This document shows, piece after piece, positions 12,888 through 54,737 of a DNA stretch of 64,000 bases. The position numbers and the translations under genes were made by a program. How positions within the stretch are numbered: the stretch's first letter is position 1; every line of letters begins with the position of its first letter. Origin of the DNA: Halichondria panicea (lineage: Eukaryota > Porifera > Demospongiae > Suberitida > Halichondriidae); NCBI RefSeq assembly GCF_963675165.1, contig NC_087391.1:1941001-2005000 (forward strand), written 5' to 3'. The notes beneath the pieces were generated by a model. It searched no databases, was not told where the DNA came from, and was given only the letters and a program-made list of their open reading frames with translations.

Positions 12888-12984
12888 ATAAACAGTTATA
12901 CATTAATTTTACTTTCACTATAATATCATTTGCTAATACAAGAGCTTTAAGATGCATGTGACTAGCCAAATATAGGAACTCACT

Positions 12985-14455: not shown

Positions 14456-14540
14456 CTTCCCAGAAACTGCACATGCTGATTGTGCAGTTCCTGATACAGG
14501 AAATGCTACAAAACACAGACCACATTTTACAAACATAATG

Positions 14541-26573: not shown

Positions 26574-26640
26574 GTATAAAATAGAATGTGCCATGTAGCG
26601 TAAGTCCGACTTATGCTACATGGCACATTCTATTTTATAC
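26574..26640. repeat. 67-bp near-perfect palindrome
   Basis: Arms 26574-26606 and 26608-26640 are reverse complements over 33 bases with one mismatch (26600 against 26614, a G:U pair in RNA) around a single central C. A transcript would form an almost perfect hairpin. Confidence 0.85.
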
Positions 26641-28655: not shown

Positions 28656-29136
28656 TCTGGCACTCGTGCATGTGTCACAACTATTACATATACATGTATG
28701 CTTTAAACAATGAAATCACAAGATCACAGATAATGATAATAATAACAAACGATGCTTTACTACATAGTATGTGCATACGTTAACTTATAAATGCCTATAT
28801 AGTACGCAGTACACTGTTCTAATGGCTGACTAAGCATGTCCTCACCTAAGTACATTCAACTGCAAGGGAAAAAGACAATAACAAAAGTCAAAGCACCACC
28901 CAAAACCTATTACAGTAAGTAGCAAATACAGTACATTAGCTATAATCTCCAGCAGCAAACCTACCATGAAAATGAAAATTTTCACGAAAAAAAAAATTTT
29001 TTGAGGATAGAGGTTCAAATGACCACACCCCTAGAGCATAGAGACTGGAAGTAAAAAATGCAAAATTTCGAAGTTGGGGCACGAAATGTTAACGCTATTT
29101 GGTATTTTACTGTACAAGCGTCAACGATTGGATAAT
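28656..29136. other. Intergenic, downstream of CCT4
   Basis: 28856-28908 matches 21547-21600, a duplication edge. A short sequence near 29000-29030 (GATAGAGGTTCAAATGACCA) recurs at 29380-29400. No gene. Confidence 0.5.
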
Positions 29137-32100: not shown

Positions 32101-35100
32101 ACCACGAGGATCTTCATCTTGGCCAGGAAGTGCAGGGCCATCTCATTGGTAGCATCTCTGTAAAGGAAAGGACAAAACACACTGAAACCTTTAAGAGGAC
32201 ACTTTAGGTAGTTATTGGTTATTATTGAGCACCCTGGTCTCGGGGGTAGGTGCTCTACTTGAGGGGGGGGGGGGTTTCTACTGAAGTATGCCACCAATTT
32301 TATTCACTTTCCACATAAAATTTAACATCCGCAATTAATATAATAATTATACTGCCCGTTTATACATGTACATGTACATTGTAGACAATACTTTTATGAC
32401 TCGAGAGTACTGATGAACCTCTCAAGTCTCAAACAGCAGTCTTCATTTGTTGTAGCAAGATTCAAGAAAGGCAAAACTACAGTGGTCTAGATAATGCCTG
32501 CTGGATACTTGCAAATCATATAATTGCTAATGGAAGGCAGTCAGCTCAATAGATACAATATGACCGCCATCTGCCCAAGTCGCAAATAAAGGATGATGGT
32601 GCACTTCTACAAAGTAAAGCCGTCAACATATAGTTATGATTGAGCCATACTCAACAGACACTCAGTTAGCAAAAAGTTATTCAATATCCTGTGGTAACAA
32701 TGCCTGCTACAAGCGTGAAAACTTCCTAGGCTAATGAAAGCTAAGGAGAACACACAAACTCTTGAAGACACATACCTGAGAATGGACTTCTGGATGAGCA
32801 GCACGTTGCAGCCTGCCTTCTTGATCTTCTTGCAGATATTGAGAATGTACTGTCTCTCTTCTTTGAGGATGCGGTCCATCTGAGAATAGTCTGACACTAT
32901 CACCTGGTTCTCCATCTGCAAACAGAACCATTGCCATAGTTACGGGGTGACACGTACAGTACATGCAGAATAACAGACTAATTGTGCTAGAGCCAGAATA
33001 AAATATTCCATTGCCAGTCTCAGAAACCAAGGCAGGCAACAAAATTAATTGCTGATCTTTACCATAGAAAACACCTATTTGGCTAGGCATTGAACACAAT
33101 AGAGTACAATTTGACCATTTACAGAAAACTGGTTTTAAGCCCCCTAGAAGGTACCTAGCAAAAATGCAGAAATTCAGGCCTTGGCCACTTAGCTAGCGTA
33201 GACAGCATACTCACGTCTGTCTTTGGTGGTGAGATACAAAACTGAATGAGTCCTATCTTAGCCTTTTCCACGCGAGTGACCCCTCCAGCCAAGTGAGAGG
33301 CCTTCTGGTCCAACACTAGTCCCTCTACCAGCTCAGTGTCCTCAACTGTACCTCTGTAGGAAAAAGAATGGCATTTACGAGTTAGTCACTGCAAAGAAAA
33401 GTAATACATGGCTACTACTGCAAGGCAATGGATTCGTTATGCACAAAGGTATTATATATTACACAACTAAGAAAGGATTGTAACTGCACAGTGTGTATAC
33501 ACATGTACTCAATGCTATAAGCACCTACATGTACATGTATGCAAGCCAGTGCCATTTACACTCCAGGCTAACTACATTGTTTGTACATGTAATATTTGCA
33601 GCATCATCTTTTTATCAGAAACCGTTATTAAAAAAAAAGAGCTACGTATAATGTGTAACTTACCCCAGTTTCCTCACAAGTTTAATATTGTTGAGGTCGA
33701 CATTGGTAGCAGTGGCGGGGTCAATCACCTTAAGTACAGCATCCACCGAGAGTGGAGCCAGCAGGCTGGAGTACTGGGACACCACCTGCACACCAGTGTG
33801 TGTGAATGGGGAGAGAGAGGGGGTTTTCATGATGGGAAACTAGTACACAATAGCATTAGGGGGGAGGTATAGTTGTAAAGAAAACTGTACTATGAATGAG
33901 AAAGTGTGACGCAAGTACACTTTTCTATGAGCATACGTCTACATGTATATATTATTAAGACCTTAGAGTTGAGTGAGGTGGTGGCGCTCTTGAGGAGGGA
34001 CTCACGGTCGTCAAGGGTAACTGGGGTCGACATCTCAGTGAGGACCTCGGTGGCTTTGACAGCTGCCTTCTGGAATGAGTCGGAAATCGTTGTGGGGTGG
34101 ATACCTGTAAAACGGAGCACGAATTGTAAAGGGTGCCATACACCTTACACCAATATCAGGACTGATCGGCTTCGGTAATAATGCTAACAGAACACGCCAC
34201 AACTATGAGAGCATGCACAGAGGGCGCACTATTGGGCCTCCGAGATCATAATCCAAAACTAGTGTAGCTATAGTACTTCACCTTTGTATGCACAATACGT
34301 ACATGCCAATCAATGCATAATATTTATCAGGATGTCATACAGGGGAAAGGAGGGATACCCCCCCCCCCCCTAAAATGTTGTATTCATGCACCAGTTGTCG
34401 GACTGAGTGTCCATAGCTGGGGTATTGAAATAACAGCTGACATTTTTTCAGCAAAATTTTCTGATTACTTTTCTTATTTCCCCCTCTACTTTAAAATCCT
34501 GTATGACACCCTGTTTATGCTCTCTGTGATCCGGCACAGGGATAAATTTTGAGGCCACAGTAAAGAACACCCACTAAGATACCTTTCTCCAGCAAGTTCT
34601 GACTGGCGTTGAGCAGACTCCCTGCAATGACCACCACAGAGGTAGTTCCGTCACCAGCCTCAATATCTTGTGCCTTGGAGAGCTCCACCAGCTGAGCAGT
34701 GTGGTTGTGTGTGGGTGGGAGAGTAATACTGTCACTGAGCATACGTAAAGGAATACAGCTCATAAATTTCTTTATTTCACTTTCGTTTATTGTTAATCTT
34801 TTCTTTACAGTGCCTTCAGCTTTGAGAGTAAATACCATGCACAATAGGGTGAGTAGCTAGTTGTAACTTAAATCTATCTCAAGATTGGAACATTTCTAAG
34901 AAATTGTGCTGATACCATTGTATAGGTGAATGAATAAGCTACAACATTATTCAAAAATATTTCCTCAAAAGTTGTTGTAGCGGGAAATCATTTTAGGTGA
35001 AAATGGGGGTACATCGTAAAAAAATGTGTGTAACATCAAATATCTCCGGAACTAAAGTATTTCTGGACACATTTTTTGTTACATCAAAAGATAGAAAATA

Positions 35101-38100
35101 TTAACAATTAAAGTGCAAAAACAATTAGACCTTAGACGACAAAATTAATTTGCTTGAGTTCCATCGCTAAGCGAAAAGGCACCCAAAATACACCATAATT
35201 GAGTATTAATCAGTACGTGTACTTATGTAAGCTATACGTAACCATGCATAATATTATGTTAGGTTAACTATTCAGGAATGTTGTGCCAAAGTTCCAAACT
35301 TTAGCCGAAAACGATTGGTCTTTTCCATTGCTAAGCGATTGTCCACTATAGAAAAATGTTGGTGTTATATAAACCAACACATACCCACCACCTTTGATTG
35401 CCATGGAAATCTTTTTGGATATGTTTTAGATAATTTGTTCACCGTTATCATCATATTTTCTTAGAAATGTTCCAACCCCAAAATATTCACATTTATGCAC
35501 CAATACACACCAAATTGCGTTTATTTACTCTCTAAGCTGAATGCACTGTAAAAGGAAATTAATAACATTATCTACATGTAGCCAATATAAATTATATCAC
35601 ATTGAGGTTATATATAAAAAAAACCAGTTCAATTGTGTTCATTCTCTTCATTCTCTGAGAGGTATCGGTCATAGGCATCCTCCACCCATTTTTGAGGGGT
35701 GGCTATGTCGTCTCTCACTCTCCTCTTGTAGCAGCGGGCCAGGAGGTAGTACAACACAAACCCAGCAAGACTTAACAAAGCAGCCAGTCCAGTATACAGT
35801 ATCACTATCCACGGGTGAGTTGATCTAAGATCATGAAGTACTTCGAACAATATTTGAGCTAAAATGTATGTGACTACATAGATACACCACACATAGCCGA
35901 GCAGAAGGCCTCTCATATTGTAGGGCGACTGGGCACACACAAATTCCATAGCGGAAGTCAGTAACGAGATAAGAAGAGCGGCCACGACAATAGAGTGAGC
36001 ATATGCCAACACTATGTGGACAGGGTGGTTCGTCACATAGTAGTAAATACTCAGATGTACACACACAAAGTTCACGATGAAGATTGCAAATGCTATAAGG
36101 CCAATTCGTCGTATGGAGCTTAGAAATATGTGACAGATCAGAGGGTACATGAATAGCTCATAAACTACTACTAGAACAATACACCACAGGTCCCATTGAT
36201 AAGTGAAGTAGGTCAGTACAGTTGTGGTACAGTTGGAGGCTCCATCGAAATGCAGCTCATAATCAAACAGATCAAAAACGCTCAGAAACATATGAAAAGC
36301 GACGAGGATTATCGACATGGGTGAGGTAAGAGCTAAAATTCGAAAGAGAGTTTTCACATCTTCAACTTGCTCTGTAGTGAACGGTCCACCATACCTGGAC
36401 TTGCTCACGTCCATTCTTGAAGGAATGTCTTCCTCCCAGTATGTGAGAGCACTGCGATTGATAGGAGCCTTGTGTTGCTTAGCAAACTTGAGAATTCGAT
36501 AAATAATTTTCAGAGACTGCGGTGACTTTGGTTCAATTATCAGCCATTTTGGAGTTATAAAAACATCAGAAATGAGAACAATAGACATGCAAATCACTGG
36601 AAACAAGCTAAAAACAAGAGCATACTCCGACCCAATACACTGAACACCAACATTAAAAGAAACTTCGGCTAACCAAAACCCACCGAACACAGAAGCGACA
36701 AACCAGGCGATGAAACTGGTAATGTTAGTTGATGAAGACTCAGGCATCTGATCCAGACCAACTTGAGGCAACGTCACTGGAATTATGGCACTACTGCCAT
36801 GCCCAATAAACTTGACTATAGTAGTTAGTGCAATTGCCAGGCTAGCATCGATGTCAACGGCATTTTCAACAACAAACAGAAAAGATTGAAGCAAAGCTGT
36901 CACAAACATTAAAACCATCCCCATCTTAGCAACACGGTACTGCCCTAAATATGTGTCCGCCAGCCAACCAAAAAAGACGGCACTGAACGGCCACAGGATA
37001 TAAGGGACAACACTAACAATCACACTGCCCTCCACTTCAGACACACCAACGTACTTATAGGTCATAGCATCGATCATTACAGAGAGAAAGAAGTTCCAGA
37101 CGAGAACTAACAGGGCTGACTTGGAAGAAAATTTTCTCCATCTGGGCTTGAGGCATTTCCTGTAGTTGGGCTTAAGCTGCTGAATACATACAGGTGGTTC
37201 AACTTTTTCAGATATGCTAGCCAAATTTTCAGACATGTTAAAGTTTTAGTTGTCTTTACAGCTAGGCTACATTCGTCAATAAGCAATGGCTACTGATTAG
37301 CACGTGCCACTACACATATTGTTCGAGTGAGACAATGTTTTTAACAACTTATGTGACTGTATGTACAATACACCCCAAAAACATTGTCAAATGCCCCAAG
37401 GATACATATATAGTGGCAACCATTGTATTCCTGCAGTACACATACAGTTATTATATTGTTCTCCAGTTAGAAATGTCAACTTATACTCGGAAACTTATTC
37501 ATGGAAAGTATCAACAAAACGAAAACGTTCAAAGCAACTTAATATAAAAAATACTGGCCAGTACGTGCTAGAGTACAGATCTATTTGAGAGATATCTGTC
37601 GTAGACTTTCTCAACCAAAGTATGAACGCTGACTATGTCATCTCTTTCTCTCCTCTTGTACCAGCGAGCAAGTAGACAAAACAGTACAAACCCAACCAAA
37701 GTCACCACAGTAGCGAAGGATGAGAAGATCAACTTGTGATGCGCTAAACCATATTTAGAAAATAAGAAGGTGATTATCAGTTTGGCTACTCCACTAGAAA
37801 ACATGACAATACAACTTATGTGACTGTATGTACAATACACATTGTCAAAAGTTCCAGGATATACAATTGGATAACAGTCGTATAACCATTGTATTCCGGC
37901 ACTTATAATTCTACAGATAGTTAGTATATGTAGCCAATTACGAAAAATATCAACAAAATGCTCAAAGTAAATGAAAAATACTAGCCAGTACGCGTTAGAA
38001 TACAGATCTATTTGAGATATCTGTCGTAGACATCCTCAACCAAAGTATGAACGTTGACTATGTCATCTCTTTCTCTCCTCTTGTACCAGCGAGCAAGTAG

Positions 38101-41100
38101 ACAAAAAAGTATAAGCCCAACCAAAGTCACCACAGTAACAACGGATGAGAAGATCAACTTATGTTGCGGCGCTAAACCATCTTTAAAAAACGAGAGGGTA
38201 GTTATCAGTAAGGCTATTGGATAAGAAATGATGACAATACACCACAAGTAGCCCTGCAAAAGACCGCGCATATTGTAAGGTGACTGAGCAGAAATAAACT
38301 CCATTAAAGAAGGATATAGTATCGAATAAATGATAGCTACACTCAAAACATAGATGTAGGCTAGTGCAATGTGAACATCATGGTAGAAATAGAAGTACAC
38401 ACAGATCAATACGCAGAAGAAGGAGGCAATCACAATAAGCAAGACAGACACACCAATACGTCGGATTGAGCTCGGAGTCAAGTGTCCAAATAGTGGGAAA
38501 ATAACGAGCTCATGCACAACAGGAACAGGGCAATAAGCAAATTCTGGTCAGAGGTGAAAAACATAATCACATGTGAGTGGCATAGTTGGCTGTCGGTTGC
38601 ATTCGCAACATTTTCAAATGGATCAGCTTTGAGTATATATACAATGTTCGATTGTATTTGGAATGATAAAAAGCTCAGCCATAAGGGTGCAGTGAGAGCT
38701 AATATTCTTAAGAGAGTTTTCACATCTTCAACTTGCTCTACTGTAAATGGTCCACCATACTTTGTCTTCCCCAGGTCTAGTCTAGAAGGTATGTCTTCCT
38801 CCCAGTATGTGAGAGCACTACGATTAGTAGGAGATTTGTGTTTTGCAGCATATTTCAAAACACGATAGGTCGTCTTAATAGACTGTGGAGATTTTGGTTC
38901 AATAATAAGCCATTTTGGAGTGAGGAAAAAGTCAGAGATGACAACAATTGACATGCTAACTACAGACAATAAGCTCCAAATTGTCTCAAAATCACTTCCG
39001 AAACAAACCGAGCCCGTGGTGTGAGAAAAATCACTAAACCAAACACCCCCAAAAAAAGAAGCGACAAACCACGCTATGAAACTAGTGATGTTGGAGACCG
39101 AGTTGTCGGTCATTTGATCCAGACCAATTTGAGGTAGAGTGACAAATAGAATAGCAAGACTACCATATCCTAGAGATAAAGTGAACGTTACTAATCCAAT
39201 ACTCAAACTATGTGAGTACTCCATGATGGGCTGTCCGACTATAACCAATATACACTGCAGAATGGAAGTTACAAACAGCAGTATAAATGCAATCTTTGCC
39301 AATCGGTATCGCCCAATAAAGTTAGCAGCAATGTAGCCAGTAAGCAAAGCCACAATGACAAATATGACTACAGGCACAATAACAGAAATGGGGTCATCGT
39401 CATCGTTCAAAGGAAGCAATATCGTTAGATTGCCCAAATATCCAATTATAGAGCTGACTAGACCATTCCAAATGAGCACTAACACAGCTGCCTTTGAAGA
39501 AATCTTTCGTACTCTGCATTTAGGCTTGAGGTACTGACTGCACCTTAGGATAACGTCTTCTGTCACAGGTTGGTTGATTAAACAGTTTTCTTCTGTTAGA
39601 GTATTCACTACACATGGCTCAGTATTAGTAAGAGCCCTGGACGCAAACACCACATGCTTTGTTGATGAGCCAGACTCAGAACTACTCATACTCAAGCTTG
39701 GGTCTGCCATATCAACAGTTATGATTTCCCTATTAATTTGCTAATACAAGAGCTTTAAGATGCATGTGACAAGCCAAATATAGGAACTCACAATCAGTAT
39801 CAATTATAAACAATACCCTTCCTGACCACTACCCTCCTCGGGTTCTCAATACAACTAAGACACCTACTACATGAACCTACTCCAACTGCATGTTCATAGC
39901 ATTATAGTAGGCTCGGGTTCAAGGCATGGTATACACATTAGCTTCTATGAGGTAGATCATAGTCCAGGGCTCAGTATCATTAGTAAGGGACACAACGCTT
40001 TGTTGATGAGCCCTAGCTCTACATCAGACTCTAAAGTACACTTACTCAGCTTTGCGTCTGCCATATAAACAGTTATACATTTACTTTCACTTCTATAATA
40101 TCATTTGCAAATACAAGAGCTTTAAGGATTTGCATGCGACTAGCCAAATATAGAAACTCGCTACCAGTGTCAAACAATGCCCCTTCTGTATGCTACTCAT
40201 AACATACAATAGGCTTGAGTTCACGGCATGGCATACCGTATAACGGGTAATCTTTGGGTTTATAAGCAATAATTTAGTCAGTTCGTGGATCTTATTCTTG
40301 TTGTTGCTGCTTGCACTGCAGGTAAAGGTAGTCAATCGCTTCATTTATGGGTAAAATATTCGTGGTCCAGTGTTCAACCACGAAAATCCCGAATATTTTG
40401 CCCCCCAGAAATCACCAGTACACAGAAATGAAACAAAAAAATTTGTCAACACAAAAAGCATGGAATTTGGTATAACATTTTTTTATATAATTAAGGGTGG
40501 TGACAAGGGAAAAACAATTTTGAGCGTATGTGACATACATGTACATCAATTAACATCAGGTTTTTCGGGGAGATATCGGTCGTATACTTCTTCCACCCAC
40601 ATATGAGGAGTCGTAACGTCATCTCTAACTCTCCCAGTATACCAGCGAGCAAGCAGACCGAACGATACCAACCCTATTAGACTGAGCAGAGCAGATATAA
40701 CAGTGTGTACTAATAACACAACTTGGTTATCTTCAAAGTCACGTGTCATGTAATAGGCAAGGCTGGCGATTGCATATGTGAAAGAATTGATGCACCATAC
40801 ATAGCCAAGAAGGAGACCACGCATATTGTAGGGAGACTGAGCAGACACAAACTCAACTAAAGCAGTCAACATCAACAAGGCGATCAGACACACACTGAAC
40901 GTGTGACCATAAGCTACCACAACAGGAATATAATTCGTGTAATAGTAGTAAATAGACAGAAATATGCAAAGAATGTTCAAAATTGCAGTGAGCACAGTTG
41001 CTGCACCAATACGTCGAATGCTGCTTGTAACTATGTGCCCAAATAGCGGGTAAATCACCAGCTCGTAAACCACAATGAGAACCATAGCAACCAAGTACCA

Positions 41101-44100: not shown

Positions 44101-47100
44101 ACGCTAACAATCAAGTTTGTGCAAGCTCAAACAATGACTGACCTTATACGCTAATGGAGTATAATCAGATGACATAACAAATACAAGTTCAACGGGATAG
44201 AAATAAAATATTGAAAAATACAAACTGTTGATATCCATAGACTGGGATCGACACATGTACATGTAGGCATCAATCATGCACTTCCTCCACCATTAATTTT
44301 CTGAGCTACAAAAACATGATTTCTCACTCATTTCTTGTAAAAATTTGCCAACACCTACGCGCTTTGGGTTAAATACAGCCACCAGGAATAGCTAGGCATA
44401 TCGCTTCCCTCCATTACACGTGTGCAAATCAATAAATTCAAAACTTATATACCGGATCTTATATAAGCATATATACCGTATATGCTTGCTCAGAGGCCGC
44501 TCTTGTATAAAGGCCGCACTCAAATAGTAGCCTCCCTCTACAGCCTATCTTCAGGAATCGCTCTCAATTTGTAGCCTCAGTGAACTTTGAGGCTATGTCT
44601 CTGTACATGGCAGCAATACATGTATTGTCATACTGGTAGCAGCTAGCTACTGCTTTTGAAAGACTTTCTCATGGCTGAAATCGAGTTTGTGCAGCTGAAA
44701 AGAATTTTTGATGTTGGAACGAAAGGTTGCTGAATTAGTTAGTAGGCCTAAATAACGCCTCTCTGCCAATATTTAGTAGCCCGACCCTCTGATCAGCATA
44801 TACGGTTTGATGACACCCACAAACAATTGTGCATGCACATACAGAGTAATTTCCCCCACCAAGGTACATGAATTAAATGAATGGTGCTACGTTTGCAAAA
44901 AATAGAACTACAGACACAATATTAAACATGATCAATGTCATAATTATTACTAAATAGTAGCCTGGATTCTCATCAAAAATCTATCAATCACCCCACTACA
45001 AAACAAGAACACACAATACTTTGAACCAAAATGCAAAGAGCACAAAATACATAAAGGTGCACTGATAACTTTATGACGGGCTTGATAGATATCGATCGTA
45101 GACCTCCTCCACAATTCTCTGAGCCACAAAACCATCGTCTCTCACTCTCCTCTTGTACCAGCGAGCCAAGAAGCAGTGAGAAATGAATCCAACCAAACTA
45201 GACGCAAGCTTGACAGAAAAACAGATAAGATTTGAACAATCCCGATCACAAATCGTATTCGATACCAAAGTTAGTGCTACACTTCCTGGCATTATTATAG
45301 AAATCACAAAGACGACATAGCCAGAGAATAGTCCTCTCATGCTGTATGGAGCTTGAGCACACACTAACTCCAGCGACGAAGTAAATAAAGCACTTACAGA
45401 AAGATAAATGCATATCCTATTCGAATACGAGAAGACAGAGTTATAATTGACTACACCGCAGTAAACGAGAATAGTGCATGTTAGGAATATGGCATTCACG
45501 AGGACCACACAAAACAGTACAATTCCAATTCGCTTCAAGATACTGGGTAGATAGTGTTTGATGAACGGGTATATGGTGAACTCGTACAACACAATGCAGA
45601 TGAGCAAACACCACATATCATGATATGTAAAGTAGTAAGCAACCTGGTTCAAACAAACAGAGGAGAACAAATCAACAGCTGTTGCGTTAAAAACGGAGTC
45701 TATTTGTGTGAGAGAAATGTTCATAGTCCAGAGAGGCAGAGTTACAATGAACAGTTTAAAGAAAGTCTTCACATCTTCAACTTGTTCCGTAGTGAATGGT
45801 CCTCCGTATCGTGATTTTGCAAGGTCCATTCTTGAAGGAATGTCTTCCTCCCAGTAAGTGAGAGCACTGCGATTGAGGGGAGCCTTGTGCTTGGCAGCAA
45901 ACTTGAGAACTTGGTAGATGGTCTTCAAGGACTGAGGTGACTTCGGTTCAATAATGATCAATTTTGGAGCGACTACAAAATCTAGGATAAGCACAACCGC
46001 CATACACAAAGCTGGAACAAGACTCCAAAACTGCATCAACATGGAACGAGCATTGCTATCAATACAAGCACGAATAATACTAAACAGACTATCAGAAAAC
46101 CAAAGTCCAAACCAAATACAAGAAATGAACCAAGCTATAAAGCTGGTAATGTTAGAGCTCGAGGCATCAGGCATTTGATCCAACCCAAGCTGAATAGAAG
46201 TAACTAAGCAAACAGATACTGCTATGCCAGTAACAGTGGATGATAAAATAACCAAAACATTCACAAAAACTGAATTGAATGGAACTCCTTCAGATACTAC
46301 AACACCAAGAACACAATAGCAAATTGATGAGACAAACAATAAGACAAATCCAACTCTAATCAGTTTGTAGCTCCCGAACCTCGCATCAGCCAGCCACCCA
46401 GACAAAGGAGCAAACACAAGATATGAGCAAAGTGGAAGAAACAAAATTAAGTTCCAAACATGCTTTTCATGTGTCAAAAACGAATCAAAAAACAACATCA
46501 TCAAAGTAATGGCAGCTAACATCACGAGAATAGTCCAAATTAAGACCAGTAGAGCTCCCTTGGAGTAGAACCATCTCAGACTGTAGCTACACATTCTAGG
46601 CCTAAACTGCATTGCTAAACAATAAGTACTTTCGTAAGGCAAGACATAAGATATTTCATACTGACACAGAACAATAGCGTCTGCTTTAATACACAACAGA
46701 AAGTAACTCTACCACAAACATGCCCGTGTTTCCGTAATGAATATTACTCACGTAATGGATAAGAGTTATTCTAAGTGAGGAACGTGAGCCTACACTAGAT
46801 CGTTCGTAATCAAAAACTTATACCTTTGCATAAGTGAACTAATCAAATAATTATGCTCAGATTGTGACCTGTCTAAAAGGAAAGCACCAAAGATGCTAGC
46901 ACCTCAAGGAGTGGACATGCGTACTATAGCTTGTATACCTGAACAATACGTACTTTCGTAAGGCAGCCATAAGATATTTCATACTGACACAGAACAACAG
47001 CATCTGCTTTAATACACAACAGAAAGTAACTAACTGTAAACATGTCCATGTTTCCACAACGAACATTACTCACGTAATGGAGAAGAGTTAGTTATTCTAA

Positions 47101-50100
47101 GTGAAGAACGTGATCCTTGACCAGACCATTCATAATCAATAACTACTACATGTATGCACAAGTGAACTAAGATAGTGATGAAAGCACCAAAGATGCTGAC
47201 ACCTCAGTGGACATGTGTAACTTGTGCATTATGCTGCGACTAGTTTTCTAGAAGGTTATAGAATCCTGTCTAAGCAAAACTAATATAATTATAGCTATTC
47301 ATTATTCATGATAAATATTCTAAGACTATGATTGCAGGTAAAGCAATAAAGAAAACAAAACAACCAGAGAAGTCCTATGTGACTGTGAGCACACTATACT
47401 TTGATTGTACACTAATCAGAATATCTAGGCCTCCAGCTTTCTTGCTTGCATACGCACCCTTCGTTACCATAGACTAATGTATAATCTTAAAGTATGTACA
47501 ATTCAATACAAATTACTAGCACATGCACACACATGTAAGTTCTCCATCAAAGCTTATACACTGTGCTACGTTTAAAACAATACAGACATTTTAAACAAAT
47601 CATAATCTAATTCACTATAGTATGAACTCACGATCTAAAGACTAAAACTGTACAAGCTTAAAATACGTATTCACACAAAACCTAAAAAGTTTAGTTTCGT
47701 GATTCATGGCAGGCTTTGTAGGTATCGATCGTAGACCTCCTCCACAATTCTCTGAGCCACAAAACCATCGTCTCTCACTCTCCTCTTATACCAGCGAGCC
47801 AAAAAGCAGTGAGAAATGAATCCAACCAAACTAGACGCAAGCTTGACAGAAAAACAGATAAGATTTGAACAATCCTGATCACAAATCGTATTCGATACCA
47901 AAGGTAGTGCTACACTTCCTGGCATTAATATAGAAATCACAAAGACGACATAGCCAGAGAATAGTCCTCTCATGCTGTATGGAGCTTGAGCACACGCTAA
48001 CTCCAGCGACAAAGTAAATAAAGCACTTGCAGAAAGGTAATTGCAAATACTATTTGAATACGAGAAGACAGAGTTATAATTGATTACACCGCAGTAAACG
48101 AGAATAGTGCATGTTAGAAATATGGCATTCATGAGGACCACACAAAACAGTACAATTCCAATTCGCTTCAAGATACTGGGTAGATAGTGTTTGATGAACG
48201 GGTATATGGTGAACTCGTACAACACAATGCAGATGAGCAAACACCAAATCTCATGGTATGTGAAGTAGTAAGCAACCTGGTTCAAACAAACAGAGGAGAA
48301 CAAATCAACAGCTGTTACATTAAAAACGGAGTCTATTCGTGTGAGAGAAATGTTCATAGTCCCGAGAGGCAGAGTTACAATGAACAGTTTAAAGAAAGTC
48401 TTCACATCTTCAACTTGTTCTAAGCAAAACTAATATACAGCTATTCGTTATTCATGATAAATATTCTAAGACTACGATTGCAGGTAAAGCAATAAAGAAA
48501 ACAAAGATGACAAAACTAGAGAAGTCCTATGTGACTGTGAGCACACTATACTAAGATTGTACACTAATCAGAATATCTAGGCCTCCAGCTTTCTTGCTTG
48601 CATACGCACCCTTCGTTACCATAGACTAATGTATAATCTTAAAGTATGTACAATTCAATACAAATTACTAGCACATGCACACACATGTAAGTTCTCCATC
48701 AAAGCTTATACACTGTGCTACGTTTAAAACAATACAGACACACAAAATCTAATTCACTATAATAATTATGAACTCACGATCTAAAGACTAAAACTGTACA
48801 ACTTAAAATACGTATTCACACAAAACCTAAAAAGTTTAGTTTCGTGATTCATGGCGGGCTTTGTAGGTATCGATCGTAGACTTCCTCCACAATTCTCTGA
48901 GCCACAAAACCATCGTCTCTCACTCTCCTCTTATACCAGCGAGCCAAGAAGCAGTGAGAAATGAATCCAACCAAACTAGACGCAAGCTTGACAGAAAAAC
49001 AGATAAGATTTGAACAGTCCCGACCACAAATCATATTTGATATTAAGGGCAATGCTACACTTCCTGACATTATAGAAGTCATAAAGACGACATAGCCAGA
49101 GAATAGTCCTCTCATGCTGTATGGAGCTTGAGCACACACTAACTCCAGCGACGAAGTAAATAAAGCACTTACAGAAAGATAAATGCATATCCTATTCGAA
49201 TACGAGAAGACAGAGTTATAATTGATTACACCGCAGTAAACGAGAATAGTGCATGTTAGAAATATGGCATTCACGAGGACCACACAAAACAGTACAATTC
49301 CAATTCGCTTCAAGATACTGGGTAGATAGTGTTTGATGAACGGGTAGATGGTGAACTCGTACAACAGAATGCAGATCAGCAAACACCAAAAAGCATGGTA
49401 TGTGAAGTAGTAAGCAACCTGGTTCAAACAAACAGAGGAGAATAAATCAACAGCTGTTGCGTTAAAAAAGGAGTCTGTTTGTGCGAGAGAAATGTTCATA
49501 GTCCAGAGAGGCAGAGTTACAATGAACAGTTTAAAGAAAGTCTTCACATCTTCAACTTGTTCCGTAGTGAATGGTCCTCCGTATCGTGATTTTGCCAGGT
49601 CCATTCTTGAAGGAATGTCTTCCTCCCAGTAGGTGAGAGCACTGCGATTGAGGGGAGCCTTGTGCTTGGCAGCAAACTTGAGAACTTGGTAGATGGTCTT
49701 CAAGGACTGAGGTGATTTCGGTTCAATAATGAGCAATTTTGGGGCGACTACAAAATCTAGGATAAGCACAACCGCCATACACAAAGCTGGAACAAGGCTC
49801 AAAAACTGCATCAACATGGAACGAGCATTGCAAGCACGAATAATACTGAACAGACAATTAGAAAACCAAAGTCCAAACCAAATACAAGAAATGAACCAAG
49901 CTATAAAGCTGGTAATGTTAGAGCTCGAGGCATCAGGCATTTGATCCAACCCAAGCTGAATAGAAGTAACTAAGCAAACAGATACTGCTATGCCAGTAAC
50001 AGTGGATGATAAAATAACCAAAACATTCACAAAAACTGAATTGAATGGAACTCCTTCAGATACTACAACACCAAGAACACAATAGCAAATTGATGAGACA

Positions 50101-53100
50101 AACAATAAGACAAATCCAACTCTGATCACTTTGTAGCTCCCGAACCTCGCATCAGCCAGCCACCCAGACAAAGGAGCAAACACAAGATATGAGCAAAGTG
50201 GAAGACCCAAAATTAACTTCCAAACATGCTTTTCATGTGTCAAAAACGAATCAAAAAACAAAAACATAATCAAAGTAATGGCAGCTACCATCACGAGAAT
50301 AGTCCAAATTAAGACCAGTAGAGCTCCCTTGGAGTAGAACCATCTCAGACTGTAGCTACACATTCTAGGCCTAAACTGCATTGCTAAACAATAAGTACTT
50401 TGTAAGGCAAGACATAAGATATTTCATACTGACACAAAACAATAAATAGCGTCTGCTTTAATACACAACAGAAAGTAACTCTACCACAAACATGTCCGTG
50501 TTTTCGTAATGAATATTAATCGTTCAAATGGATAAGAGTTAGTTACTCTAAGTGAGGAACGTGAGCCTACACCAGACCGTTCGTAATCAAAAACTTATAC
50601 CTAATGCATAAGTGAACTAATCGAATAATTATGCTCAGATTGTGACCTGTCTAAAAGGAAAGCACCAAAGATAGCACCTCTATAGGCACATTCATGCATG
50701 TATTATGAACAGTGGTTACTCTAAAGCAGGGAAGCAGGATATTGCGCCACACTTCACCAAAAAAGTAAGGGTGGAATTTAAAAAACAACTTTATGCACTT
50801 TTATATTCGCAACACTCGATCCCCTCACAAATTAATATGTCAAAGGTTTATAAAACTTAATGCCAAAAACGTTACCTGGGCGGCTCTGGCACTTATGCCC
50901 CACTGCGTATGTATTTTCTGGGGAAAACATTGCATATAATTATTGTTCTAGCATGTACGCCTGTGCAGTATGCTCAGCTGCTAACTAATTTTTGGTTTCG
51001 ATACAGGTTTTCGTTTTTCAAGCAGCTGCTAACCTTCTGTGTGTACAGCGTTTGATACCAACAATGAACCACTGTTAGCATGCAATCTAAAGAAGAGCAC
51101 ATACATTCATATCACTGGACCATAACTAACAGAATATTTACTGTATATACGAACAGTCGGTAATGGCAACTAACAGAATATTTACTGTATATACGAACAG
51201 TCGGTAATGGCAACTAACAGAATATTTACTGTATATACGAACAGTCGGTAATGGCAACTAACAGAATATTTACTGTATATACGAACAGTCGGTAATGGCA
51301 ACTAACAGAATATTTACTGTATATACGAACAGTCGGTAATGGCAACTAACAGAATATTTACTGTATATACGAACAGTCGGTAATGGCTATACTCGAAACA
51401 ATTAAAAACAATTTCTCAATCAATAATTAACTTATGAGATGTCATGTCAAACAGTCAACTCTACTATCAAAATGAAAGCACCGCTGGTGCTGATGCCTTG
51501 GTAAAGGTGCCAAAGCTATATAACATAAAGCTACTAATAGCTTTTATATAATTATCATGATGAACATCTTTGCATTAATTAATTTGCTGCATGCAGGCAG
51601 AATTCAGAATCAAATGAAAACTCAAACAGTGGGTAATGATCGACCGTGATTGTTGTTATAAACGATCGATGCCAAAAGTTCATGTCTAAAATTAATGGCT
51701 GCATTAGCAGAGCCTAGCAGCTCTCTTCTCACTCTTGCAGCTACCAATAGCTAGCGTTCTAGTACAAAGCTAACTACTAAGTAGAGTAGCAACACTCAAT
51801 GGACAAGGTTTTCTCTAAGGCACTCTTCTGAAAAGGCTGCAACGGCATTCCAAGTAAGCAAAACTAGGCATAACTCGAGAACGAAGCATTATTTTGCAAA
51901 TCCAAGAAAACATGACTAGAAACTCTTACTTACATTGATCCTTGAGCACCTGTAGCAATCTACACACACACACACAAACACACTATCGTATACCTCGCTT
52001 GCGCATGTGTACCGGAAGCATAATAAGCATACCGTAGTGCTAGCAATGATACTAACTATGCGAGCGGCTGCCATGTCGCTTTTTTCAAGGCCTGTAGAAT
52101 TCCCATTGAAAATGCACCATTTTCTCGAGGAAATAAATTAATCGCGCAACATTTTTGTAGCCTTATAATTGGCCAAAACTTTATGCTTGCATATAATTAT
52201 TTCTAGCACTACCGTATAGTATACCGTATAGCGGCAAGCCTGAATAGATAATTGAACTATAAACACACGCATCTACGGCACATTTGACATGAATAAGTGA
52301 TGATGTTCTAATTATGCATGTAATGGGTTGTGAAGTAGAGTGTGCAATGAACACAATTAAGTGTACAATCCAAAATGTACTACGTACATACAGCTCGTTT
52401 TTTTATCCATGCAGCTAATTGCGATGCTAGTTATGAACTAGAGCACTAAAGTGCAAACCCTCGGCTGGTGACATGATAATAAAGAAACCAGAGGGGTGAT
52501 ATACAATAAATGCAAGTGAATGTACTATTTATGACTGAGCACAGCAACCAGACTGGAGGCATGTGAGAACAGAGAACAAAGTTTAAATCCGACTAGGATC
52601 ACAGCAAAGAAGCCTAAACCTGTAGTCTTACAAATGGAGTCCTGGTGCTAGGATCGCGGAATCAGCAAAGAAGCCTTCCCAAAGACAACAAGCCACAATC
52701 ATAAATATTTTCCTCGAATAAAGGCCGTGTATAGCTAGCCATGTAGCCAACATGCAAGTTCAAGCTTCTTAGCTTTTATTCGACAACAAAGCTTCAATCA
52801 AAATCTTCCACTAGTAAAATAATAACTTGTTGTGTAAAGGCTATCCATGCTATCAATGCAGCGCTGTGGAATCCACGTGAGCAGGCTCAGAAATCACAAA
52901 CAGACCAGATGACTACTATAACCCGTGGCTACTCGCGCACCTTGGGTTAATAATCCTACAAATGGAACGCTAGGTACAGCGGGAACTTTAACCTACAATG
53001 CACCTATCAATGTCAATCCCAACTGCCCCTAGTACGGGTATGGGTGGGGCAACAGCATACATAGGGAATTGAAGCATCAACTGCATGACATCTAGGCAAC

Positions 53101-53813
53101 CTCGATGCTCTTTTTGGAATAAGTGCAATCAACACGGCTGTGTAGGTAAATGCGCATGCGCAATTATGTCAATTATGTCATATCAATTTTCCAGCCTCTG
53201 GGGCAGTGTTATAAAGATCAAATTCCCGCCTATGGCTTCATCTTGTACTGCCTATCCACGCGTTACAAGTACTAGGAGAGGTACTAGGAGAGGTAGGGCT
53301 TTGAATTCATGAATAATATGGTATCTACTGTGAGACCAGAAGTCATACATAGGGAATTAATCGCGCAACATTTTTAGGTTTTCTGATAGTAGTGCACTTT
53401 AATAATTACATGTGCTTCATGATTTTCCATCACTTACCATTCTGGCGACTGGATGAAGGACAGCCATCTGCTTGAGAATGGTGGCCCCATCATTAGTGAT
53501 TGTGACGTCTCCATTGCTCGACTGGATCATCTTGTCCATGCCCCGAGGGCCCAGGCTCGTACGAATGGCATCAGCCACAGCTACAGAGAACAACCATTTT
53601 TCACCATTTTCACCAGATACAGGTATTAGGTACAACTATTAAAATGGGTGGTCCATTGACAAGGGTGGAGTCTTCTCAATTATACCACCAGTTTGGATAG
53701 CTAAAGTTACCTTTTGCAGCAGTAATATTGCTCAACCTAACTTCAGTTGGCTTCTCCTTGTCTTTGAACGCTCGGTTACTAGGACCAGGACCTGCTTGAG
53801 CCTTAAAAGCCAT
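29137..53813 (-). CDS. CCT4: T-complex protein 1 subunit delta (CCT4), 12 exons
   Basis: One subunit of the eight-member TRiC/CCT ring that folds actin, tubulin and other cytosolic proteins using ATP. Exons, 5' to 3': 53813-53711, 53580-53438, 34691-34583, 34104-33962, 33785-33664, 33353-33215, 32915-32776, 32157-32061, 31783-31676, 31332-31202, 30291-30057, 29277-29137. All junctions are GT-AG and all phases agree. The sum is 1611 nt, 536 aa plus stop, close to the usual ~539. Landmarks: [20 protein letters not shown] (nucleotide site), [41 protein letters not shown] and [10 protein letters not shown]. The protein ends [11 protein letters not shown] by reading into the stop at 29137. A tiny further exon giving a more usual VNTR-like end is possible. 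Intron 2 is 18.7 kb and contains other genes. Confidence 0.96.
29278..30056. other. CCT4 intron 11
   Basis: No gene. A short repeat near 29560-29580 (TGCTGGATACTTGCA) is shared with the ends of the two repeats at 30449 and 32379. Confidence 0.6.
30449..30583. repeat. Intronic direct repeat, copy 1
   Basis: About 135 bp with near identity to 32379-32514, in another CCT4 intron and in the same orientation. No terminal inverted repeats or coding content were seen. Confidence 0.8.
30656..31180 (+). repeat. R1 element, copy in CCT4 intron 10
   Basis: Full-length R1 copy from GAAAGCACCGCAGGTGCTGA to CGCACCGAGGCATAAC. Its right end lies only about 20 bp from the donor site of exon 10, so it occupies most of the intron. 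It contains (CAGA)n at about 31110-31128. Confidence 0.75.
32379..32514. repeat. Intronic direct repeat, copy 2
   Basis: See 30449-30583. It lies in CCT4 intron 7, between exons 7 and 8. Confidence 0.8.
34885..35475. mobile_element. Element with inverted TTGGAACATTTCTAAGAAA ends
   Basis: Left end TTGGAACATTTCTAAGAAA, right end its complement TTTCTTAGAAATGTTCCAA. Looser inverted similarity extends inward. About 590 bp, no protein frame. It lies between CCT4 exon 3 and the nested gene at 35629. Confidence 0.65.
35629..37236 (-). CDS. SLC15/POT-like transporter, clade 3, nested in CCT4
   Basis: Intronless 535-aa frame. The N-terminus is short and unlike clade 1. The basic [20 protein letters not shown] stretch leads into helix 1, where ExxER is again absent. 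Residues 90-101 are [12 protein letters not shown], a good POT/MFS loop motif with its Asp. [20 protein letters not shown], the [20 protein letters not shown] loop and [17 protein letters not shown] follow in family order. The tail ends [18 protein letters not shown]. The base before the start codon begins the segment that is repeated at window position 1, so a sister copy probably lies just outside the left edge. Confidence 0.9.
   Translation of the reverse strand: MSENLASISEKVEPPVCIQQLKPNYRKCLKPRWRKFSSKSALLVLVWNFFLSVMIDAMTYKYVGVSEVEGSVIVSVVPYILWPFSAVFFGWLADTYLGQYRVAKMGMVLMFVTALLQSFLFVVENAVDIDASLAIALTTIVKFIGHGSSAIIPVTLPQVGLDQMPESSSTNITSFIAWFVASVFGGFWLAEVSFNVGVQCIGSEYALVFSLFPVICMSIVLISDVFITPKWLIIEPKSPQSLKIIYRILKFAKQHKAPINRSALTYWEEDIPSRMDVSKSRYGGPFTTEQVEDVKTLFRILALTSPMSIILVAFHMFLSVFDLFDYELHFDGASNCTTTVLTYFTYQWDLWCIVLVVVYELFMYPLICHIFLSSIRRIGLIAFAIFIVNFVCVHLSIYYYVTNHPVHIVLAYAHSIVVAALLISLLTSAMEFVCAQSPYNMRGLLLGYVWCIYVVTYILAQILFEVLHDLRSTHPWIVILYTGLAALLSLAGFVLYYLLARCYKRRVRDDIATPQKWVEDAYDRYLSENEENEHN
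37237..37565. repeat. Duplicated flank, second copy of 1-332
   Basis: 5' flank of the clade-3 gene joined to the 3' flank of a clade-1 gene, as at the left edge of the window. Confidence 0.8.
37568..37808 (-). pseudogene. C-terminal fragment of clade-1 transporter
   Basis: Encodes only the last ~80 residues ([20 protein letters not shown], then RRERDDI and [11 protein letters not shown]). At about 37806-37815 (GACAATACA) it runs directly into the 3' intergenic flank of the next gene. This looks like a deletion between two copies at a short shared sequence. The last 80 codons are still open. Confidence 0.82.
38008..39710 (-). pseudogene. Clade-1 transporter with one frameshift
   Basis: The frame is open from the start at 39710 (410 codons) and from about 38517 to the stop at 38008 (169 codons), with a single one-base loss near 38515-38525 (CATGCACAACAGGAAC where intact copies have one more A). 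Everything else is well preserved: [35 protein letters not shown] and VEDVYDRYL. The [12 protein letters not shown] motif has Ala in place of Asp, as in 333-2060. The same one-base loss occurs in 11157-12887. It could be a very young pseudogene, a polymorphic null or a sequencing error in a short A run. Confidence 0.8.
39711..39960. other. Shared clade-1 5' flank
   Basis: Matches 18410-18660 and the other clade-1 upstream regions. Confidence 0.6.
39961..40064 (-). pseudogene. N-terminal remnant of clade-1 transporter
   Basis: Start codon at 40064 and degraded N-terminal codons. It is the counterpart of 18661-18757 in the duplicated block. Confidence 0.68.
40065..40545. other. Intergenic, duplicated with 18758-19242
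   Basis: No gene. Contains TACCGTATAACGGG near 40235, like a MITE terminus. Confidence 0.6.
40546..42168 (-). CDS. SLC15/POT-like transporter, clade 2, nested in CCT4
   Basis: Intronless 540-aa frame. The N-terminus ([20 protein letters not shown]) is polar and unlike clade 1. The [20 protein letters not shown] stretch leads into helix 1. [12 protein letters not shown] with Asp, [16 protein letters not shown], the [20 protein letters not shown] loop and [17 protein letters not shown] are all present. The tail is [20 protein letters not shown]. It is the intact parent-like copy of the fragment at 19243-19765. No ExxER motif, so it is a transporter of unknown substrate. Confidence 0.9.
   Translation of the reverse strand: MSFTRMRETLPAQDKGKPLEQSEEADDRSPRLSRCPKPKFQLRKFSSKAAVLVLIWNFLVNCIFGSLDNLIYLFHLNEEAFSNVFPFTMLIIVALLSGWIADTYLGHYRTAKIGFVLLFVASVLQSVLVIAKHSPDENYPLGLRIGLVAPTVSLGYGSAAILLVTLPQIGLDQMPDCFVTNITSFIAWFVFSVFAGFWVSEFSTTIVAVCIGDDLATVWSLFPVICMSIVLISDFFLTPKWLIIKPKSPKSLKNIYRVLNFASKHKSPVNRSALTYWEEDIPSRIDLGKSKYGGPYTIEQVEDVKTLLQILALTTPLWITLTSFNMYGNTMSLADFNGTVLDERCSSQVAQYFTYDWYLVAMVLIVVYELVIYPLFGHIVTSSIRRIGAATVLTAILNILCIFLSIYYYYTNYIPVVVAYGHTFSVCLIALLMLTALVEFVSAQSPYNMRGLLLGYVWCINSFTYAIASLAYYMTRDFEDNQVVLLVHTVISALLSLIGLVSFGLLARWYTGRVRDDVTTPHMWVEEVYDRYLPEKPDVN
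42169..42361. other. Short intergenic spacer
   Basis: 193 bp between two nested transporter genes, AT-rich. It must hold the terminator of one and, in part, the promoter region of the other. Confidence 0.5.
42362..44020 (-). CDS. SLC15/POT-like transporter, clade 4, nested in CCT4
   Basis: Intronless frame. I place the start at 44020 ([20 protein letters not shown], 552 aa) because the open extension to 44110 is hydrophobic, Cys-rich and overlaps a tandem duplication of non-coding character. The basic [20 protein letters not shown] stretch precedes helix 1. [12 protein letters not shown] has the Asp. LGLNQMP has Asn where the other genes have Asp. The [20 protein letters not shown] loop and [16 protein letters not shown] follow. 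The tail is [10 protein letters not shown]. It is the most diverged intact member together with the 45071/48849 pair. Confidence 0.88.
   Translation of the reverse strand: MDLLAYDVDSTALSTKEASYYQTKLTSTTPCIKGNNHEISVHRSGELRKCHCKIRYRIRWFSSKAAFLVLFWNFLLSYSTASLNNLYPSFGVNTVQSDLYRNLVTLVPYVSWTVVAPVSGWLADTYMGSYRVARIGMLLLFLSTVINCVLYQVTDKVLEFDSRLFVSILIISNAIGYAGQAAVLVTLLSLGLNQMPDASTENITSFIAWFLCSIQAGYWLCDSTSYIPVSCINPSTDYLRVWGFFPALSVGIVCLSDILLSPKWLIVEPKSPQSLLIIFHVLKFAKQHKAPLNRSSLTYWEEDIPSGIDLGKSKYGGPYSTEEVEDVKTILRLLAISVPLLFIMVAFYLCQDSSIIPETKSCVGAFITYIIDNDSNTYVLGTIIYEFAIYPFISSMFESSILKRIGLASFLVTLLNVIYLGLYIAQSVNSELTWPWLSYPQAAVAGFLKVLWMTSMLELLYAQSPYKMRGVVLGYFWFLNLLSYMLVGTAIILIGGGHSNVVYSGTSTGVSVVGLGLYCVLAWRYKRRERDDIPTPHKWAEDAYDRYLGVST
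44059..44152. repeat. Tandem duplication, 2 x 47 bp
   Basis: 44059-44105 is repeated exactly at 44106-44152 (begins AACAATCAAGTTTGTGCAAG). It straddles the upstream ATG of the extended frame of the clade-4 gene. Confidence 0.92.
44153..45070. other. Intergenic with one MITE
   Basis: Apart from the element at 44474-44806, no gene or duplicated flank was recognised. Confidence 0.55.
44474..44806. mobile_element. MITE with TACCGTATATGC termini
   Basis: Left TACCGTATATGCTTGCTCAG...GAGGCCG, right its near complement (CTCTGATCAGCATATACGGT). Non-coding interior with a repeated AGGCCGC motif. Confidence 0.75.
45071..46612 (-). CDS. SLC15/POT-like transporter, clade 5, nested in CCT4
   Basis: Intronless. 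Start chosen at 46612 ([20 protein letters not shown], 513 aa) because the close paralogue at 48849-50381 starts at the same codon and lacks the 28-residue extension. [12 protein letters not shown] is the loop motif (Asp kept). [20 protein letters not shown], the [20 protein letters not shown] loop and [15 protein letters not shown] (Ala instead of Ser in the QxP element, closer to canonical POT) follow. The tail is [20 protein letters not shown]. There is virtually no N-terminal cytosolic tail compared with ~70 residues in clade 1. Confidence 0.9.
   Translation of the reverse strand: MQFRPRMCSYSLRWFYSKGALLVLIWTILVMLAAITLMMLFFDSFLTHEKHVWNLILFLPLCSYLVFAPLSGWLADARFGSYKLIRVGFVLLFVSSICYCVLGVVVSEGVPFNSVFVNVLVILSSTVTGIAVSVCLVTSIQLGLDQMPDASSSNITSFIAWFISCIWFGLWFSDSLFSIIRACIDSNARSMLMQFWSLVPALCMAVVLILDFVVAPKLIIIEPKSPQSLKTIYQVLKFAAKHKAPLNRSALTYWEEDIPSRMDLAKSRYGGPFTTEQVEDVKTFFKLFIVTLPLWTMNISLTQIDSVFNATAVDLFSSVCLNQVAYYFTYHDMWCLLICIVLYEFTIYPFIKHYLPSILKRIGIVLFCVVLVNAIFLTCTILVYCGVVNYNSVFSYSNRICIYLSVSALFTSSLELVCAQAPYSMRGLFSGYVVFVISIIMPGSVALTLVSNTICDRDCSNLICFSVKLASSLVGFISHCFLARWYKRRVRDDGFVAQRIVEEVYDRYLSSPS
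46617..47240. repeat. Clade-5 5' flank duplicated in tandem
   Basis: 46617-46930 is repeated imperfectly at about 46941-47240 (AAGATATTTCATACTGACAC in both), and again at 50390-50690 upstream of the third copy. The middle copy has no gene attached. Confidence 0.7.
47271..49562. repeat. Direct tandem duplication, unit about 1.15 kb
   Basis: 47271-48420 and 48421-49562 are direct copies. Each has intergenic sequence beginning TCTAAGCAAAACTAATATA followed by the C-terminal half of a clade-5 transporter gene. The junction is exactly at 48420/48421, where the first copy of the gene stops and the repeated intergenic DNA begins. Confidence 0.88.
47704..48420 (-). pseudogene. 5'-truncated clade-5 transporter
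   Basis: Only the C-terminal 233 or so residues (from DVKTFFKLF to VEEVYDRYL) remain, with the frame still open. It was created by the tandem duplication at 48420/48421, so it lacks the native promoter and first six or so helices. Very similar to 48849-49560. Confidence 0.88.
48849..50381 (-). CDS. SLC15/POT-like transporter, clade 5, nested in CCT4
   Basis: Intronless 510-aa close paralogue of 45071-46612. Differences include loss of three residues in the loop before ARSMLMQF and conservative changes in helices 1-2. Same motifs: [60 protein letters not shown] and VEEVYDRYL. It is the copy nearest the CCT4 promoter. Confidence 0.9.
   Translation of the reverse strand: MQFRPRMCSYSLRWFYSKGALLVLIWTILVMVAAITLIMFLFFDSFLTHEKHVWKLILGLPLCSYLVFAPLSGWLADARFGSYKVIRVGFVLLFVSSICYCVLGVVVSEGVPFNSVFVNVLVILSSTVTGIAVSVCLVTSIQLGLDQMPDASSSNITSFIAWFISCIWFGLWFSNCLFSIIRACNARSMLMQFLSLVPALCMAVVLILDFVVAPKLLIIEPKSPQSLKTIYQVLKFAAKHKAPLNRSALTYWEEDIPSRMDLAKSRYGGPFTTEQVEDVKTFFKLFIVTLPLWTMNISLAQTDSFFNATAVDLFSSVCLNQVAYYFTYHAFWCLLICILLYEFTIYPFIKHYLPSILKRIGIVLFCVVLVNAIFLTCTILVYCGVINYNSVFSYSNRICIYLSVSALFTSSLELVCAQAPYSMRGLFSGYVVFMTSIMSGSVALPLISNMICGRDCSNLICFSVKLASSLVGFISHCFLARWYKRRVRDDGFVAQRIVEEVYDRYLQSPP
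50382..51126. other. Intronic spacer
   Basis: To about 50690 it is the clade-5 5' flank. The rest is unique with no frame. Confidence 0.6.
51127..51386. repeat. Minisatellite, 6 x 44 bp
   Basis: Six near-identical head-to-tail units starting at 51127, 51171, 51215, 51259, 51303 and 51347 (last slightly short). Each begins TAACAGAATATTTACTGTAT and contains the small inverted pair ACTGT/ACAGT. Confidence 0.95.
51472..52022 (+). repeat. R1 element, copy in CCT4 intron 2
   Basis: From ATGAAAGCACCGCTGGTGCT to the GTACCGGAAGCATAA end; internal order as in 30656-31180. (CA)n near 51960-51980. No coding. Confidence 0.75.
52023..53375. other. Intronic sequence, nothing recognised
   Basis: No supported gene. 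An ATTAATCGCGCAACATTTTT motif occurs at about 52136 and again near 53357. A TACCGTATAGCGG MITE-like end is at about 52222 without a visible partner. Confidence 0.5.
53376..53420. repeat. Short direct repeat, also at 54251-54301
   Basis: AGGTTTTCTGATAGTA...GTGCACTTTAATAATTACAT occurs just inside intron 2, next to the exon 2 donor, and again about 440 bp upstream of the CCT4 start codon with a 6-bp difference. Confidence 0.85.
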
Positions 53814-54737
53814 GGTTCAGTACATGTACCTAGAGCAGTTTTTAACAACACGTGTACCTTACGCCTTAGTTATGCGCATGCGCATTAGCAGCAGCGATCA
53901 CTACCAAAGCGCGGCCTGGACCCGAGACTATGCTGATGCAGAGTTTGTTCAGAGCTCGCTGATATCATTATGATATGGTCACTCAGGTTAGATCTGGAAT
54001 CAGCATGGTATACATCTATTGTGTAATTACTTGTTTCACTCCTTGTTTTTTATGTGCGGAGTCAGTGAACATGCAGTGACGAAAAGTCCACGTCAAAGTT
54101 GACGGTTAGCTAATCTTACTGCTGACAATCAGTGGCAAATTTGATTGGCAATACAAGTTTCACAATATTCATAATGACCTGAGTTTGTATAAATATAGTG
54201 TCGTGGACCATATATGAAAGAGGAAAGAACGTATGGTGACTACTATAGCCAGGTTTTCTGATAGTAAGTCTAGTGCACTTTAATAATTACATGTGCTTCA
54301 TTACCCACAACGTTACTGCATGCGTAGTACAATCTTTTAGCCACTTGATTTGAGCCTCAGTCTGCTGCCTCACTTCTCCACACAAGAATTAATCTGAAAG
54401 TATCAGCGATAGCTATATAAACCTACTACATGTATATATATCGTAGGTTTATATATATTATTATATGGCTTGATGAATCTTGCTCATGCATGCATGCAAT
54501 AAAACACTGCTACAATATATTTGTGGGTTGTCATGATATTGCCGAAACTCTGCACTAAAACCTGTAGCTATAGTCACCATACGGTCTTCATGTACGGCCC
54601 TGTGAGGCTATAAGCTTGTACTCTGAATACGGATAAGTTTAACACTTATCAAACTCCACGCAATAAGCTCGGCCTAAAATAATGCTACATGGTGTTACTG
54701 CATGCTATTCTTATTGTTACTATAATTATTAATTATT
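53814..54737. other. CCT4 upstream region
   Basis: Presumed promoter and 5' UTR of CCT4. No TATA or other element that I can support. 54251-54301 repeats 53376-53420. Confidence 0.5.

Follow-up and report, generated by a model that had tools for sequence, protein, structure and literature searches.

Gene families nested as tandem clusters within one intron of another gene have been described in insects. Intron 2 of flotillin-2 (83 kb in D. melanogaster) is occupied by GMC genes that run opposite to the host (PMC1891103), and the TipE/Teh cluster is located in the last intron of CG18675, with nesting gained or lost in related species (PMC3240667). Single-exon genes within the introns of other genes are also common in the compact genomes of sponges, with 2432 counted in Aphrocallistes and 3358 in Amphimedon (PMC10282587), and same-strand pairs account for 76 of 296 simple nested pairs in human and 55 of 248 in mouse (PMC8467205). 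The locus analyzed here lies in a 64,000-nucleotide stretch of the Halichondria panicea genome (C15:1941001-2005000, hereafter the window), where intron 2 of a predicted CCT4 gene holds an array of transporter genes. As in the GMC/flotillin-2 case, a tandem family of uniform orientation occupies one large intron in the 5′ part of a widely conserved gene to which it is unrelated; the guests there are antisense (PMC1891103), whereas those in CCT4 are sense to the host. The accessible text of the flotillin-2 report mentions no repeated host 3′ half, whereas CCT4 exons 3–12 occur four times and the transporter cluster extends beyond the gene. The TipE/Teh locus likewise is a family cluster nested in one intron, but that cluster is old and stable, and the accessible part of its description reports no multiplied host exons (PMC3240667). 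The single-exon form of the guests is shared with the nested genes of other sponges, although these are presented as genome-wide counts, and the available portion of that report describes no tandem array whose host also has a repeated 3′ half (PMC10282587).

Nested single-exon genes and intronic gene-family arrays are known, and the nesting observed here is ordinary in kind. What is less usual is the combination of a same-strand array with a host in which one 5′ end is followed by four copies of the 3′ half. A literature search, to which subscription journals were mostly closed, found no report of CCT4 nesting or of this transporter expansion in sponges. Partial tandem gene duplication accompanied by gene conversion between copies is a known phenomenon, and the CCT4 locus shares with it the mosaic identity, the independent lesions, and the presence, downstream of a complete gene, of 3′ copies that lack a promoter. 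It differs from that phenomenon in that the downstream-type copies of CCT4 evolved under strong protein constraint and in that the apparently working gene spans the transporter array.

The host gene was rebuilt on the minus strand of the window from 12 exons with GT-AG borders, which join into 1611 nt and a single open frame of 536 amino acids plus a stop. The coding part of exon 1 (53711–53813, 103 nt) was delimited by open frame and splice borders, and is followed by exon 2 (53438–53580, 143 nt, donor GTAAGT). The remaining exons are exon 3 (34583–34691), exon 4 (33962–34104), exon 5 (33664–33785), exon 6 (33215–33353), exon 7 (32776–32915), exon 8 (32061–32157), exon 9 (31676–31783), exon 10 (31202–31332), exon 11 (30057–30291), and exon 12 (29137–29277), which together make up what is referred to below as module B. 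This reconstruction reproduces the 12-exon, 1611-nt in-frame join of the initial annotation, and the view taken there that the host looks functional apparently holds, the frame being intact across the spliced exons of module B. The 18.7-kb intron 2 that it had reported corresponds exactly to positions 34692–53437, or 18,746 bp. In order, introns 1–11 measure 130, 18746, 478, 176, 310, 299, 618, 277, 343, 910, and 779 bp; intron 2 apart, the ten introns range from 130 to 910 bp. The total gene span is 24.7 kb, and the six other groups of matches to the chaperonin family PF00118 that were measured in the assembly span 2.6–5.6 kb; further groups occur on C6, C8, and C14. When the exon-core protein (531 residues, lacking five junction residues) was used as a query, the best matches were CCT delta chains (E 1.1e-237, residues 6–525), and the best non-delta eukaryotic match was an epsilon chain (7.5e-101). 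With delta far ahead of other subunits, sequence similarity identifies the host as CCT4 (TCP-1 delta, the chaperonin delta subunit), an essential protein-folding gene. A scan of prokaryote genomes returned 72 loci, which were archaeal.

Intron 2 contains five open transporter frames, all wholly within the intron and on the minus strand, with lengths of 535, 540, 552, 513, and 510 amino acids for T1 to T5 when counted from the first Met. In the direction of host transcription, these are T5 (48849–50381), T4 (45071–46612), T3 (42362–44020), T2 (40546–42168), and T1 (35629–37236). Four broken pieces of the same family, also on the minus strand and sense to CCT4, are interspersed with them, namely the C-terminal piece of a T4/T5-like copy (47713–48429), the N-terminal pieces of a T4-like copy (46916–47031), a T6-like copy in two frames (38011–39740, with the frame changing near 38520), and a C-terminal piece (37574–37981). 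All nine of the intronic copies listed in the initial annotation, five open and four broken on the CCT4 strand, were therefore recovered. Against structures, T2 alone matched SLC15A3 (E 1.4e-8) and SLC15A4 (E 1.2e-7), and a profile built from eight transporter proteins matched SLC15A4 at 1e-15, SLC15A3 at 4e-11, and a bacterial POT at 3e-7. None of the seven transporter frames scanned matched a Pfam family at E 0.001, and a rescan of four of them at E up to 5 or 10 gave unrelated sub-threshold matches only. By homology, the nested genes would belong to a divergent, SLC15A3/A4-like branch of the SLC15/POT family and are predicted to be peptide transporters. Because Ka/Ks is 0.35 in both the T1B/T1A and the T4/T5 pair, these genes look maintained, if loosely.

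The stretch of intron 2 between exon 2 and T5 consists mostly of dispersed repeats and single-copy DNA. An earlier copy of exons 3–12 was sought there, and no trace was found. Two segments tried as CCT4 remnants, 51576–52026 (3072 first-look candidates in the assembly, 40 scored) and 52430–52960 (1689 candidates, 40 scored), were rejected as dispersed repeats; they represent two families with very many copies in the genome. Positions 53040–53392, beside the direct repeat described below, matched themselves and gave three weak partial matches. Intron 2 also contains three exact tandem copies of an 88-bp unit at 51124–51387.

The transporters continue well past the host gene. At least 81 transporter matches were obtained in the assembly from the 80 candidates scored out of 594, and all 17 matches listed in the head-to-tail cluster at C15:1887120-1991357 are on the minus strand. 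Beside the five intronic genes, six open copies (535–575 amino acids) lie among the downstream modules described below, and two further open frames, of 558 and 564 amino acids, lie past them. Between module B and module A, the minus strand of the window (333–18437) carries open frames at 16695–18437, 6130–7890, and 333–2084, plus broken copies. The initial annotation had pictured the expansion of a gene family within the intron of a housekeeping gene; the intronic array is instead one end of this larger cluster, and exons 3–12 of the host were multiplied too. Since the array is the end of one head-to-tail cluster, the shared strand is one property of one array and does not reflect many independent same-strand insertions. 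The cluster did not simply grow in an intron: because exons 3–12 recur as four tandem modules interleaved with it, the host 3′ half and the transporters were duplicated together.

In the direction of transcription, the four modules on C15 are B, A, C, and D. Module B (window 29137–34691) is the only intact one, and the other three lie past the left edge of the window. Module A (C15:1934042-1939173) has an in-frame stop and three indels in exon 6, module C (C15:1911499-1916968) is without exons 3–5 and its exon 6 contains an insertion of 4 nt, and module D (C15:1897898-1901525) is without exons 8–10, such that the lesions differ among A, C, and D. A copy or remnant of T1 is located directly upstream of each of the four. 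Modules A, B, and D can be aligned at the nucleotide level across the junction between T1 and exon 3, and C likewise has T1 in front of it; the join in B is for this reason not a one-off misassembly. In module B, the DNA between T1 and exon 3 includes an insert (34808–35545, minus strand) that does not occur in modules A and D and whose T1-proximal part, from 35124, is common to C. Exons 1–2 with their flanks (window 53429–53920), on the other hand, were found once in the 131.46-Mb, 39-contig assembly that was searched; this query gave one extra weak match (104 bases, 74%), in a different gene of the chaperonin family on C11. A second CCT4 was not found in the assembly, so exons 1–2 have no other partner there. 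Elsewhere, chaperonin-family stretches were observed as closely similar copies separated by a few tens of kilobases, at C6:3184448 and 3215587 and at C14:6086331-6092486 and 6105357-6109822, which may reflect frequent segmental duplication or uncollapsed haplotypes.

The divergence between modules varies along their length. Modules B and C differ by 0–0.7% in introns 6–10, and A and D by 1.1–2.4% in introns 3–7. Between B and A, the introns differ by 6.9–20.6% from intron 3 to intron 8 and by 1.8–4.6% from intron 9 to intron 11, and the two are 98.7% identical over positions 25775–29559, which cover exon 12 and downstream DNA. As such identity is found despite the divergence of introns 3–8, the modules are mosaics formed by exchange between copies. 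The high-identity blocks are short and switch partner (about 8 kb for B–C and 3.8 kb for B–A), and their neighbors are 8–18% divergent.

Codon changes were then counted between modules, omitting exon 6 for A and C, exons 3–5 for C, and exons 8–10 for D. Across module types, changes are mostly silent, with 3 nonsynonymous versus 18 synonymous for B–A (P 5.3e-9 under neutrality), 4 versus 21 for B–D (P 7.4e-10), 1 and 10 for A–C, and 2 and 10 for C–D. The A–D pair, with 5 nonsynonymous versus 7 synonymous changes (P 0.013), is much nearer neutral, and the B–C pair, with 0 and 2 (P 0.057), carries little information. Differences common to A and D versus B (and C where present) comprise 12 synonymous changes and 1 nonsynonymous. 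Because B and A differ by so few amino acid changes relative to silent ones despite the divergence of their introns, both module types coded for protein during most of the time over which they diverged, and the module lesions look young. For the neighboring T1B/T1A pair, Ks is 0.061, similar to CCT4 B–A, and Ka is 0.022 versus 0.004 for CCT4 B–A. Module A has been partly exchanged toward B in exons 11–12, and D-private changes in these exons may for that reason be older than D. Modules without exons 1–2 of their own may have stayed under selection because they were alleles or complete genes until the rearrangement took place, or because splicing from the one 5′ end reached them.

Exons 1–2 are flanked by a direct repeat on the minus strand. 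One copy (R′, 53376–53420) starts 17 nt into intron 2, and the other (R, 54251–54301) ends 437 nt upstream of the CCT4 ATG; the two are identical at 45 of 45 aligned bases, with one 6-nt gap. A 28-base core of the repeat has two matches in the assembly at up to 2 mismatches, namely these two copies, and its reversed control has none. The 45-bp repeat, as a templated filler or small duplication, is likely the scar of a rearrangement that put the array beside exon 2. Alternatively, an 830-bp piece may have moved and been flanked by a target-site duplication.

Taken together, these observations are probably best explained by a CCT4 gene that stood beside the transporter cluster and was broken up by duplication, deletion, and exchange. 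We infer that CCT4 would originally have adjoined a tandem cluster of single-exon SLC15A3/A4-like genes, and that repeated rounds of segmental duplication and deletion, with exchange among the copies, then broke it up. The unit multiplied would have been [transporter T1 – CCT4 exons 3–12 – downstream DNA]. The outcome would have been one 5′ end, with the promoter and exons 1–2, heading the four 3′ modules. The 45-bp repeat would mark a rearrangement, 17 nt beyond exon 2, through which the transporter array came to follow that exon directly. Transcription from exon 1 would now run across the array, with exon 2 cis-spliced to exon 3 of module B, which alone is complete, and the nested transporters would have promoters and ends of their own. 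Weighing against this account are the T-poor exon-3 acceptor and the two AATAAA hexamers before it (see below), the single occurrence of the junction between exon 2 and T5, the nearly neutral A–D pair and the scant information in B–C, and the failure of the search between exon 2 and T5 to find an earlier copy of exons 3–12.

The exon-2 donor (ATG|GTAAGT) and the exon-3 acceptor are ordinary, on the same strand, and in the right order, and CCT4 probably now depends on the splicing of exon 2 to module B across the array. The exon-3 acceptor has T at 2 of 20 positions, the fewest of the 11 acceptors, and pyrimidines at 12 of 20, which is not the lowest value (exons 2, 5, and 7 have 10–11). Two AATAAA hexamers (34771–34791, minus strand) are located 85–100 nt upstream of exon 3. 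In intron 2 as a whole, AATAAA occurs 5 times versus 7.4 expected from base composition, and ATTAAA 6 times versus 10.0. Within 400 nt after the stop (162 nt for T3), one of these hexamers follows T3, T1, and T8, and neither was present within 400 nt after the stop of T5, T4, T2, T6, T7, or CCT4 modules B and A. Transcriptional interference has been documented for human nested genes (PMC3192792), and the exon-3 acceptor and the two AATAAA hexamers upstream of it would be candidate places for it at this locus.

Other histories were weighed against this one. In the first, CCT4 was intact when a single transporter entered its intron 2 and multiplied in place, and the copies of exons 3–12 further downstream would be by-products, dead on arrival. 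Such nesting has precedents, as sponges commonly have nested single-exon genes (PMC10282587) and gene families housed in introns are known from the insect arrays (PMC1891103, PMC3240667), and the T1 copy before exon 3 in four of four modules is what would be expected if entry into intron 2 had preceded the multiplication of the modules. Modules dead from birth should, however, accumulate about 3 nonsynonymous changes per synonymous change, and the ratios observed are 3:18 for B–A, 4:21 for B–D, and 1:12 for the fixed differences between the A/D and B types. The direct repeat 17 nt after exon 2 also points to a later rearrangement at the border of host and array, and we regard this simpler history as rather unlikely. 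It is very unlikely that haplotypes or collapsed repeats were falsely joined in the assembly and that intron 2, the extra modules, or both are unreal. The order B, A, C, D, in which B resembles C and A resembles D, is what two haplotypes placed end to end would give, other chaperonin-family matches (C6 and C14) are near copies too, and the junction between exon 2 and T5 occurs once, with no second copy for a cross-check. Set against these points, there is no N in the window or in the 114-kb region read, exons 1–2 were found once, each copy has different lesions, and the T1–exon 3 junction recurs in diverged modules; short high-identity blocks that switch partner next to divergent neighbors are also unlike two haplotypes.

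Two further readings concern how the halves of the gene would be joined. Exons 1–2 and exons 3–12 might be separate RNAs joined in trans, with no RNA crossing the array; a glass sponge is reported to possess a trans-spliced leader (PMC10282587), and at least two array genes (T3 and T1) have AATAAA just after the stop. The accessible text of the glass sponge report concerns short leaders, however, rather than two gene halves (PMC10282587), no promoter for exons 3–12 was identified, and an ordinary donor and acceptor on the same strand and in the right order make cis-splicing the simpler explanation, leaving trans-splicing extremely improbable. We also consider it quite unlikely that CCT4 once had, and in some animals of this species may still have, one 5′ end with several interchangeable 3′ cassettes, exon 2 being spliced past runs of transporter genes to different exon 3–12 modules separated by tens of kilobases. 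Were this true, it would explain both the selection on promoterless modules of both types and the tolerated loss and re-joining of cassettes until one was left.

Under the favored history of break-up beside the cluster, followed by cis-splicing to module B, the locus is a concrete case of an essential, compactly built gene straddling the tandem cluster of another family, in which the copies, their lesions, and what may be a junction scar can still be read, and it would be a good place to study how a gene survives break-up by duplication. At this one locus, two questions can be put to the test: can a chaperonin gene be transcribed through five genes in the sense direction, and can long-range splicing from a shared 5′ end keep promoterless 3′ copies under selection? 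The locus is also a warning for annotation, as the four modules are easily miscalled as four CCT4 genes, or the gene as truncated at exon 2.

Several other features were observed in the window. Cysteine-rich open frames are located downstream of module B on the opposite strand (22061–23285, plus strand) and are partly repeated after module A; neither of two such frames had a Pfam match. Two open frames are present on the plus strand at 61266–63852, the first of which gave a weak match to the PAP2 superfamily (E 3e-5, below the curated cut-off). Sponge genomes encode numerous PMP-repeat proteins and are rich in single-exon genes of the SLC15-like type. Upstream of CCT4, a 1427-codon open frame on the minus strand (55104–59387) contains Chlamydia-type polymorphic membrane protein repeats (Pfam PF02415, E 9e-21).
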